Part shown: positions 3,341-31,187 of the stretch, in pieces | Layout: each line of letters begins with the position of its first letter | Position numbering within the stretch: position 1 is the stretch's first letter | Source of the DNA: an uncultured Methanomicrobiales archaeon | GTDB taxonomy: Archaea > Halobacteriota > Methanomicrobia > Methanomicrobiales > Methanospirillaceae | NCBI GenBank assembly: GCA_903828975.1 | Contig: CAIKOD010000155.1 | Coordinates: 1 to 39,926 of the forward strand | Direction of reading: 5' to 3' | DNA length: 39,926 bases | The notes under the pieces: generated by a model | Database searches by the model: none | Told to the model about the DNA's origin: nothing | The model's input: the letters and a program-made list of their open reading frames with translations, nothing else | Translations under genes and position numbers: made by a program

Positions 3341-3658
3341 AAGCAAAAATATTTTTTTGGATCTTTATGAGCGGATAATACGGCTCTGTTGACTTCCTCT
3401 AAAATCCATCTTGCAGGTATTTTAGGGATTCTCAAAATTTACTCACGCTCCCCGGACTCCGCCCCGCCGCTTTGGCGGCCCCGGTTGGGGAATATTACCT
3501 GTTTATAGATTATTTCTTGAACTGCTTCAACCATGTAACGTTACAATTCAAATACAACCCCTCTGTCAGGAGATTTTAGTCCAACATAAATTTCCAGAAA
3601 AGGATGACAGGTTTTACCCCGTTTTTTATTATTTTTGGTTGAAAAAAACCAGAAAATC
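3341..3658. other. intergenic region with a GC-rich hairpin island
   Basis: No gene was seen in this 318-base gap between two convergent genes. It is AT-rich except for about 3446-3490, which is strongly GC-rich and holds two adjacent small hairpins: CCGCC at 3464-3468 pairing with GGCGG at 3474-3478, and CCCC-GGTT-GGGG at 3479-3490. The left end has a T-run (3350-3357). The island may be a terminator, a degraded mobile element end, or part of an untranslated RNA; nothing further can be supported. Confidence 0.4.
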
Positions 3659-28305: not shown

Positions 28306-28803
28306 TTACCTGATATTGCAGGGTAGATGAAGATCAGTTAGGATCTTCTCTATATCCAGGTAAAGCATTAGGCGTGACTTTTTTCCTGCCTCTTCCAGTC
28401 GTTCCTTATCACCTGAAGAAGTTTTTATAATTCCTTTCACGAATCCTCCGGAATCGGTGGCAAGTATGCCAGTTACGGGTTCAATATCGTCAACCGGTAT
28501 TGAAAGGACGCTGTGTACTTCTCCGACAATAATCCCTATGTTGGAACCCCCTGTAAGGTCCGGTACCATGACAATTATCTTCCCGTTTTTTTTCTCAGAT
28601 TCCTCTTTAATGCTCAGCAGTTCGTTGATTGATATGATCATGGTCACCTCTCCCCGGAGATTGATCACACCAACGATGCAGTTCTGGCTTCCCGGAAGGC
28701 GGGTGATTGGTAGAATCTCAACGATCTCCCGTACCAGACTGATATCCATCCCATAGAGTCCGCTTCCGATTTCAAACTCTACAATATCTTTTGTCTCTGC
28801 CAT
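28306..28803 (-). CDS. cheW: chemotaxis adaptor CheW
   Basis: A 165-residue single CheW domain: EFEIGSGLYGMDISLVREIV, ITRLPGSQNCIVGVINLRGE (the conserved NLRG segment) and a C-terminal helix after LYLDIEKIL. It couples receptors to the P5 domain of CheA. It aligns along its whole length with the CheW domain of the hybrid protein at 29811-31187, including a shared inserted segment containing VPDLTGGSNIG / LSAEATGGENIG, which argues for duplication. First gene of the cheW-cheR pair. Confidence 0.95.
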   Translation of the reverse strand: MAETKDIVEFEIGSGLYGMDISLVREIVEILPITRLPGSQNCIVGVINLRGEVTMIISINELLSIKEESEKKNGKIIVMVPDLTGGSNIGIIVGEVHSVLSIPVDDIEPVTGILATDSGGFVKGIIKTSSGDKERLEEAGKKSRLMLYLDIEKILTDLHLPCNIR

Positions 28804-29032: not shown

Positions 29033-29102
29033 AGCAGAATGTCTAAATCATGCTATTTTTTAATTTGTGGCCACATTAATAACATTGATATAGCGGACAG
29101 GC

Positions 29103-29154
29103 TATCCCCGGATTTCAATCGTACGATAAGAACAGTCGTACCATCGCGGGGATA
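29103..29154. repeat. nested perfect inverted repeat (possible structured RNA or DNA element)
   Basis: The outer arms TATCCCCG (29103-29110) and CGGGGATA (29147-29154) are perfectly complementary, and inside them GTACGA (29121-29126) pairs with TCGTAC (29136-29141). The two helices are separated by short unpaired segments of 10 and 5 bases. Both strands are open for about 60-90 codons around here without a Met start, with no recognised domain, so a decayed gene or element end is also possible. Confidence 0.45.
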
Positions 29155-29354
29155 AGAAACCACCACCCTGCAAGAAAAATATTCCATGGCAGGTACCCTT
29201 GGTTGAGAGGATTCCGGGTATATAATTGCCCGAAGGTAGCGGCCTTTTGCGAATATTCAGCTGGTAAAACCCGGTTGAACTACAGCACCCGGATCCTTAT
29301 TGGAAGTTACTGCAATAATGCAGGGGCAAAAACCACAGAGCAGCTTAAAAAGGT

Positions 29355-29438
29355 ATAACAAAATTTGTTATCATTTCCTTGTTATTCGACGCAGGATTTG
29401 AAAATCCGTTTTACAAGACAATTAAAAATTTGGATTTT
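29355..29438. repeat. AT-rich palindrome and alternative hairpins
   Basis: A 17-base perfect palindrome (ATAACAAA, central A, TTTGTTAT) covers 29355-29371. Next, AAAATCC (29401-29407) can pair either with GGATTT (29394-29399) just before it or with GGATTTT (29432-29438) after it, giving mutually exclusive hairpins. No coding sequence is supported in 29155-29560 on either strand. Confidence 0.4.
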
Positions 29439-29559
29439 GTGAAAAACACATACGAACGGGAAGTTCAAACCCGAACCATGAAAATGCCCTTTAAAAATCT
29501 TCTTGTATTGGGGTAATATCAAACATTTACATGGGAAATTTTGAGTAATTAAAAAAGAA

Positions 29560-29780
29560 GAGGAAATATGTAGGCGGGAGGGGGGTTTAACCACTTCCTG
29601 TCCCATCCCCAATAAGATATCCTTATGTAGGGTTCAACGGTAGAATCCCCAAGAATTTCCGGGATTTAAGGCCATTGCCTATCCCAACCATGGCCGCCTA
29701 ATCGGCGGGGGAGAGCCCCGGAAACGTGATTCAATTTTTGAATACTCTTAATCTACAAGATAGATAGAGAGTATTTTTTT
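29560..29780 (+). ncRNA. candidate structured RNA in the cheW/PAS-CheW gap
   Basis: A GC-rich block in AT-rich surroundings with several perfect stems: ATAAG/CTTAT (29612-29616/29622-29626); GGGTTC with GAA-T-CCC (29630-29635/29643-29649, one bulged T); an enclosing stem TTTCCGGG/CCCGGAAA (29656-29663/29717-29724) around GGCCAT/ATGGCC (29670-29675/29690-29695) and GCC/GGC (29696-29698/29704-29706). The enclosing helix plus two internal hairpins make a three-way junction. A terminator-like hairpin with T-run follows on the + strand, which suggests transcription to the right. An AT-rich stretch at about 29543-29557 could be its TATA element. Not matched to a known RNA family by eye; the 5' end is a guess. 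Confidence 0.45.
29741..29780 (+). terminator. intrinsic terminator-like hairpin with T-run
   Basis: AATACTC (29741-29747) pairs perfectly with GAGTATT (29769-29775), an inner ATCT-ACA-AGAT hairpin sits in the loop, and the 3' arm runs into a row of seven T (29774-29780). The T-run lies on the + strand side, so it fits a rightward transcript rather than the leftward PAS-CheW gene that ends at 29811. Confidence 0.5.
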
Positions 29781-29810
29781 CAAAGCCAAAAGTTACTCTA
29801 TTCATTGGCA

Positions 29811-31187
29811 TTATTTTGATTTCTGGAGGGACAGATCCTCAATAACCTTGAGCATATCGAGCCAGATAACGAGGTCTTTTTCATCTGCCTCTGATTTTTT
29901 GTCCAATCCCCTGCTTCCGATTTTAATAATACCTTTGATATGCATCGAGGACTGTGACGACAACCCCTCGCCAAGGTGCTCAACATCACGTTCATTAATC
30001 TGGATGACACTCTGGACATCGTCCACAATTACCCCGATATTCTCTCCTCCTGTTGCTTCTGCAGATAATACAATAATTTTACTGCCTGAATTTTCATCAC
30101 GGGCTGGAAGGCCGAGAATTGCAGTAATATTAATAATATTGGTTATTTCCCCACGGAGGTTCATAATTCCACGAAGGTAATCGGGAGAACAGGGTATCGG
30201 GGTGATCGGCATCATCTCGACAATCTCGCGTGCGAGATTAATATCAAGGGCATATTTTTCTCCGCACAGATCAAATTCCACAACATCAAACGTGAGGCTT
30301 TTTTTTGCATCGTTCTTCGCATTTATCTGTTTATTTTCTGTTACAGGCGACGCAATAGTAATCCCGGGCTCAGCCGCAGGAACAACTTCATTCGGAATAA
30401 TGGGGATTCCTGTCGGTTGGGGTGAGAAGTCCTTCTTTTTCGATTCTTCATCGAGGAGCAGTTTCAGTTCCTGGATTTCGCTCTTCATCTGCTCCTCTTC
30501 CTGCAGACTGGCAGTCTTATCATAAAAGACCACCATTATGCCGGATAATGAACCGGAATCAGTAATCATGGGGATACTATACTGCTCAAACGCATGTGCT
30601 CCCGATGGAAAGTCAATAATCAGGTCACTGACATTATGACGTTTGAATTTTAGGACGTCTTGTACCCCGTTTCCACGGGTGGTCACAATTTTAAAATCCT
30701 GGTAATTCATGCCCTTTAATTCTTCAGGACTGAAACCACTTACACGGCAGAACGCCTCATTGACATCATGTATCTGCTGCACTGGATCAAGGAGGAGCAG
30801 GGGCATTGGATTTTTAATAAAAACACTTTCCTTAATGACAGATAATTCATTTAGTTGAGATTCCTTTGTACTGCTGGCGTCCTCAATCCTGCGGAGACGA
30901 CGAATTTCCGTGCTTTCCTCTTCCATTTTCCGGTTAACATCATTTACTGCCTTAATGAGAGGTTTCCATGATTCATCAACTTTTGTTTCGTTAATCTGGC
31001 CTGAAAAATCCCCCTTAAGTCCTTTCCAGAGTTGTTCTTCTATGTTGGATAGTATCACATTTTCTCCCGTTGCCGGGTGAACAGGTCCGGTGGCTGTCCT
31101 GCAGGGTACTCCGATGAGAAGTGCTCTCCTCCCCGCCTTTGCATTCAGCTCAGATCCAGTACCTTCTACTGCATTGTCTGCGACCAT
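29811..31187 (-). CDS. hybrid PAS-CheW signalling protein
   Basis: A 458-residue cytoplasmic protein. Residues about 45-100 resemble the HAMP-like/linker part found in soluble methanogen receptors (GDFSGQINETKVDESWKPL). A PAS domain covers about 115-235 (VNEAFCRVSGFSPEELKGMN). A linker with a coiled coil (EEEQMKSEIQELKLLLDEES) follows, then a CheW domain from about 300 to the end (VVEFDLCGEKYALDINLARE; GIMNLRGEI). There is no membrane helix and no methyl-accepting coiled-coil. It probably brings a small-molecule or redox input into the array via CheW contacts. The start is well supported: a strong ribosome binding site (GGAGGGG) precedes the ATG. It follows the ParA gene by 24 bases. Confidence 0.9.
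   Translation of the reverse strand: MVADNAVEGTGSELNAKAGRRALLIGVPCRTATGPVHPATGENVILSNIEEQLWKGLKGDFSGQINETKVDESWKPLIKAVNDVNRKMEEESTEIRRLRRIEDASSTKESQLNELSVIKESVFIKNPMPLLLLDPVQQIHDVNEAFCRVSGFSPEELKGMNYQDFKIVTTRGNGVQDVLKFKRHNVSDLIIDFPSGAHAFEQYSIPMITDSGSLSGIMVVFYDKTASLQEEEQMKSEIQELKLLLDEESKKKDFSPQPTGIPIIPNEVVPAAEPGITIASPVTENKQINAKNDAKKSLTFDVVEFDLCGEKYALDINLAREIVEMMPITPIPCSPDYLRGIMNLRGEITNIINITAILGLPARDENSGSKIIVLSAEATGGENIGVIVDDVQSVIQINERDVEHLGEGLSSQSSMHIKGIIKIGSRGLDKKSEADEKDLVIWLDMLKVIEDLSLQKSK

Follow-up and report, generated by a model that had tools for sequence, protein, structure and literature searches.

The stretch of archaeal DNA analysed here (the window, 39,926 nt in full) carries a CheW gene at 28306-28803 and a PAS-CheW gene at 29811-31187, both on the − strand, and an earlier note had placed between them a candidate undescribed structured RNA in a GC-rich block at 29560-29780. 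The position between the two genes was confirmed and the compositional contrast is real (45-50% GC in the block vs. 28-36% in the immediately upstream DNA). No plausible gene covers the block, as had been noted, and both hairpins drawn on its 5′ side were found in the sequence. The limits of the block had been set too narrowly: the true unit is a dispersed element of 356 bp with imperfect terminal inverted repeats, located at 29432-29787 and ending 24 bp before the stop codon of the PAS-CheW gene.

Complete copies of this element for the most part start with GGCTTTGTTGAAA and end with TTTCAACAAAGCC, and they come in a short form of ~263 bp and a long form of ~356 bp. The left terminal inverted repeat of the window copy, GGATTTTGTGAAA (29432-29444, + strand), differs from the consensus GGCTTTGTTGAAA at three positions, and the right one, TTTTTTCAAAGCC (29775-29787, + strand), corresponds to the consensus TTTCAACAAAGCC. 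Two modules were delimited on the + strand, namely module A (29435-29538), an AT-rich left-end extension of 104 bp found by profile search and present in the long form only, and module B (29549-29773, ~225 bp), which bears the conserved structured core and has a mean column identity of 76% among 40 aligned copies. Module B scored 152 bits with R1, a model of this module based on sequence only, and a second, truncated copy lies on the − strand of the window at 3396-3505 (58.9 bits with R1, 15.9 bits with R2, a structure model built from other genera without any sequence from the genus of the window). The element is flanked by the target-site duplications AAAAATTT (29424-29431) and AAAAGTTA (29788-29795), which match at 6 of 8 positions, with 15 bp left between the right one and the stop codon of PAS-CheW. 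Across 30 copies, a duplication of 8 bp and of no other length was detected (67% match vs. 36% in swapped flanks), and it was perfect in five of the 30 compared to none expected. The exact end consensus occurred 61 times in the genome from which the window comes, hereafter the source genome, and never for a reversed control, while allowing up to one mismatch gave 210 sites vs. one control site. Elsewhere in this genome (L029-L066), module A is also found in inverted orientation on the right of module B, or it flanks module B at either end, in forms of up to 516 bp, and these arrangements look as if end modules had been exchanged by recombination.

A repeat search of the source genome returned at least 46 matches besides the window copy, at 69-84% identity, and module B had 58 matches in the stretches examined plus 18 further sites, such that the genome carries at least about 70-75 copies, some of them partial. 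Nearly all copies (44 of 45) fell outside open reading frames of at least 120 amino acids, the frame calls being crude, and 14 copies were in convergent gaps, 20 in codirectional gaps (11 with the core on the same strand, 9 on the opposite strand) and three in divergent gaps. The element is shorter than 600 bp and without an open reading frame, and has many dispersed copies, terminal inverted repeats and a target-site duplication, all of them general features of MITEs. That the window element is a dispersed mobile repeat can be stated with high confidence, and that its vehicle is an IS6-like, MITE-type element with moderate confidence.

The earlier note had also suggested that the block may act on motility. 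A cis-regulatory RNA of cheW or PAS-cheW would accord with the position between both genes, but the core lies on the + strand, opposite to both of them, and the same element occupies at least 70 other, unrelated intergenic sites. Moreover, in a congener (G003) whose PAS-CheW orthologue is 77% identical, the gap that comes after this gene lacks the element. Since the element recurs at so many sites and is absent from the congener's PAS-CheW locus, cis-regulation of motility is not supported; it is refuted as a conserved feature, and we give it hardly any weight. The window copy is one insertion among many, with no special tie to chemotaxis.

The fold that had been drawn for the block was to a large extent peculiar to this copy. 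The perfect 8-base enclosing stem, with arms TTTCCGGG at 29656 and CCCGGAAA at 29717 (29656-29724, + strand), has all eight pairs in the window copy but a mean of 5.6 and never eight in the other 39 copies, and it competes with the conserved hairpin P4, described below, for the same C residues. Similarly, the GGCCAT/ATGGCC hairpin has six of six pairs in the window copy but a mean of 4.3 in the others. The terminator exists in the sequence as a 3′ hairpin followed by T residues, although it is not a feature of the family, as the run of seven T is a mutated right terminal repeat where the family consensus reads TTTCAACAAAGCC. Folding of the whole block was only modestly better than that of dinucleotide shuffles on the + strand (z = −2.0, 7 of 200 shuffles as good) and reached z = −1.6 on the − strand.

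A conserved fold emerged from comparison across genera. For the core of ~180 nt it comprises two hairpins (P1 and P4), the stem P2 with arms far apart, a helix of two pairs around P4 (P6) and a probable pseudoknot (P5). It was assessed on an alignment of 41 copies from five genomes and at least four genera, which was not fitted to the structure and has imperfect MAFFT registers. P2 pairs CCCC..GCGATAG with CTATCGC..GGGG, forms a perfect 16-pair stem in one Methanolinea copy (L149:2996) and ten pairs, GTGAGGATGG/CCATCCTCAC, in L204, while P4 pairs GGGGC with GCCCC. P5 would be formed by a strand upstream of the 3′ arm of P2 and another lying 3′ of P4, a pairing that creates a pseudoknot. An outer stem CCGGGG/CCCCGG proposed from the source genus was dropped because the cross-genus alignment assigns its strands to P2 and P4, and P3 (GCC/GGC) was omitted from the final structure (79.5% paired, little covariation).

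In this alignment, 88.9% of cells were paired, compared to 44-59% for slid structures. With P6 replacing P3, two-sided changes that kept pairing numbered 41 vs. 12.8 ± 4.8 in shuffles, which ignore relatedness (0 of 500 as good), and without P6 there were 20 such cells vs. 6.9. The clearest covariation was that of P6 (A-U 19, G-C 14 and G-U 6 at one pair, C-G 31 and U-A 8 at the other), a helix picked from the same alignment on which covariation was then counted. Strand-swap permutations supported P2 (1 of 5000 as good) and P5 (0 of 5000), the signal for P5 coming from G010, G011 and G024 and not being found in the source genus. Arm lengths covaried across genera (ρ = 0.69 for P1, 0.65 for P4) and significantly so inside G010 (P1) and G058 (P1 and P4), though not within the source genus, where compensatory changes taken alone likewise showed no excess over shuffles; the copies of this genus appear to be decaying paralogues. 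Conservation along the core came in blocks (identity over 10 columns had a variance of 0.0073, against a maximum of 0.0045 when shuffled), and the asymmetry of wobble pairs weakly favoured the + strand (59 GU vs. 35 AC cells, or 29 vs. 25 by column and genus). Covariation of the kind expected of a conserved structured RNA is present across species, and the core is a member of an undescribed structured family of Methanomicrobiales. The earlier note had taken a match to a mobile element as counting against its structured RNA; the block does belong to such an element, yet the core of that element has a conserved fold, so the idea of an undescribed structured element holds for the family (no Rfam match, covariation across genera) while the stems as originally drawn belong mostly to one copy.

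The window copy itself is a decayed member of this family. R2 matches it at 29571-29752 on the + strand (28.2 bits, E = 8.5 × 10−6 in 40 kb), and it retains six of eight pairs in P1 (29577-29597, arms 29577-29584 and 29590-29597), the hairpin whose arm lengths covary across genera, and six of eight in P2 (29607-29693; CCCC at 29607-29610 and GATA at 29616-29619 with TATC at 29680-29683 and ATGG at 29690-29693). Four of five pairs are left in P4 (29707-29719; GGGG at 29707-29710, CCCC at 29716-29719), all of these stems being on the + strand, and three of five in P5, while P6 around P4 is lost (0 of 2).

With R1, the core was detected in 23 of the 61 relatives and in 13 of 29 genera, often at high copy number. 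It is widespread in Methanomicrobiales: in a class-level sample, 64 of 199 genomes and 17 of 37 genera had matches to R2, which were strong in families f1 (Methanoregulaceae) and f3 and weak (E ~10−4) in f2, f4 and f5, where some may be chance matches; this model also detected the window copy and other copies of the source genome at up to 102 bits. Three genomes of the same family that are complete or nearly so (G006, G007 and G014) had no core, and its copy number was strongly reduced in some others. Many copies with the same terminal repeats occur in another genus of Methanoregulaceae, UBA467 (G010), with a weak 8-bp duplication signal (49% vs. 37%, 12 copies). An exact core pattern had no match among the viruses of IMG/VR, plasmids yielded no core match, and no description of the family was found in a limited selection of the open literature.

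Genomes of Methanolinea (G011, G046 and others) contain the core in head-to-tail arrays in which inspection revealed no terminal repeats of the element; transport in mobile form may therefore be just one of the ways in which the core is carried. Arrays comprise seven clear units of ~216 bp (L149:2779-4240), five units of ~183 bp (G117:C61:21-929) and 5.6 copies as counted by TRF (L281:2469-5871). In two Methanolinea genomes, the L149 array and its counterpart (L294:1306-1940) hold the same position between ndk and a C-N hydrolase gene, with flanking proteins that are 82-98% identical, whereas the units are 54% alike between the species and 80% alike within L149, which indicates that the units turn over fast and are homogenised. 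L252 and L255 have another array in common, beside an ion-channel gene.

The ends of the element were compared with those of known insertion sequences. Ends of the IS6 family start with GG, contain TGTT and AAA motifs and produce duplications of 8 bp, and two MITEs of this family, 227 and 336 bp long, have been described (PMC7986276). The element shares with such MITEs (IS26/IS240-type ends) the GG tips, both motifs, the 8-bp duplication and similar lengths (~260 and 356 bp), but differs in having a conserved structured core as its interior rather than remnants of an insertion sequence, and in that no IS6 transposase occurred in the genomes searched. The IS6-type transposase PF13610 (DDE_Tnp_IS240) was detected in none of seven genomes but in five control genomes, and given its absence we do not file the element as a member of IS6 and call it IS6-like only. 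IS903, of the IS5 family, has the ends GGCTTTGTTGAATAAATC and makes 9-bp duplications. Its first 12 bases are nearly identical to the ends of the element, but for the latter 8 bp is the only length that fits, and DDE_Tnp_1 genes (PF01609, eight matches, rejected as partner) are never framed by its terminal repeats. The IS1595 transposase PF12762 was rejected as well, its 11 matches in the source genome having a right end ...TTACCC and not being framed by a pair of the terminal repeats, and PF01610 was absent from the source genome. No terminal-repeat pairs 0.8-2.5 kb apart were seen by eye among the sites listed for G000 and G010. Across the four transposase families searched in the source genome and its relatives, no autonomous relative framed by the same ends was found, and copies could be missed in a source assembly of 186 contigs. 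At four contig ends of this assembly (L071, L075, L076 and L077), IS1595-type transposase genes stop at the contig break and share the right end ...TACCTTACCC; this multi-copy insertion sequence probably fragments the assembly.

Comparison with described RNAs and repeats likewise gave partial likenesses. Nothing in the window matched Rfam at the gathering threshold, and permissive searches returned best matches at chance level (E = 0.85-1.3). A structured RNA with a pseudoknot on a mobile element, here a predicted fold, is common to the core and to omegaRNA/HEARO, TnpB reRNA and the DUF3800 motifs, but the element lacks a nuclease gene and has no Rfam match above threshold. A likeness to DUF3800-XI was rejected because the occurrence of DUF3800 genes does not follow that of the element: they are missing from nearly all copy-rich genomes, and among R1-positive genomes they are confined to G024, G031, G037 and G043. 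REP/BIME and other intergenic palindromic repeats resemble the element in being intergenic, mostly outside divergent gaps, high in copy number, rich in hairpins and sometimes arrayed; it differs from them in its ~180-nt core with a long-range stem and probable pseudoknot, and in its terminal repeats, which occur in two genera, one of them with a clear target duplication.

As a whole, the window element is probably a decayed, non-autonomous MITE-like element of Methanoregulaceae with IS6-like ends and a core of conserved fold as its cargo. Given those ends, with inverted repeats of 13 bp and duplications of 8 bp, we infer that an IS6-like transposase acting in trans is the most likely agent of its movement. 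The cargo would be the ~180-nt core, with P1, P2 and P4, the latter inside the short helix P6, and the probable pseudoknot P5; selection probably keeps this fold in spreading lineages while individual inserted copies decay, and the core probably acts as RNA. We regard as most likely a selfish element that depends, for the persistence of its lineage, on the folding of its core, probably as RNA. The element could instead be a plain MITE, with hairpins that are the passive palindromes of a young repeat, alike by common descent only and without function as RNA or otherwise. In favour of this, pair changes within the source genus do not exceed those of shuffles, P6 is gone from the window copy together with parts of P1, P2 and P5, and good folding is common among MITEs (PMC10969869). 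The blocky conservation, the covariation of pairs and of arm lengths across genera, and the divergence of array units beside well-conserved flanking proteins argue against this reading, the covariation across genera already straining it, and we judge it improbable.

Two further explanations would retain a function for the fold, and we judge both unlikely, to about the same degree. The complex fold with its probable pseudoknot and the arrays kept in place between species, beside ndk and the C-N hydrolase gene and beside the ion-channel gene, could reflect a family of trans-acting small RNAs useful to the host at many loci, as protein-binding or sponge RNAs, with transposition as the route of spread only; the patchy distribution, with related genomes lacking the core or strongly reduced in it, and the decay of many copies argue against this. 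Alternatively, hairpins in single-stranded or cruciform DNA could be what a recombinase acts on, or a protein that organises the chromosome, comparable to REP or attC sites, consistent with the intergenic bias, the few divergent gaps, the head-to-tail arrays and the weak strand asymmetry of wobble pairs. However, REP hairpins are far shorter and simpler than the core, and no recombinase gene lies beside the arrays sampled. Beyond the preferred reading of a MITE-like vehicle with folded cargo, a bolder version is conceivable, though tentative: the core may represent a class of structured RNA in archaea that is new, has a probable pseudoknot and acts as RNA (catalytic, protein-bound or guiding), and that spreads in Methanomicrobiales as cargo of DNA-transposon ends and in head-to-tail arrays, its units diverging fast in sequence with the fold kept.

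MITE-like repeats are usually regarded as mere passive remnants. The present element has an interior that keeps a complex fold across an order of methanogens, at high copy number and in arrays that are stable in position between species. If transcribed, the core would be an abundant and previously undescribed RNA in archaea of environmental importance, and selection for RNA structure would be acting on what a non-autonomous element carries. Structured intergenic blocks in such genomes should be compared with the genome of origin before they are assigned to neighbouring genes. The gap between the CheW and PAS-CheW genes holds a second GC-rich block at 29090-29360, which, unlike the element at 29432-29787, has no repeat matches in the source genome and which folds better than its shuffles (z = −2.7), with TATCCCCG...CGGGGATA around GTACGA/TCGTAC.
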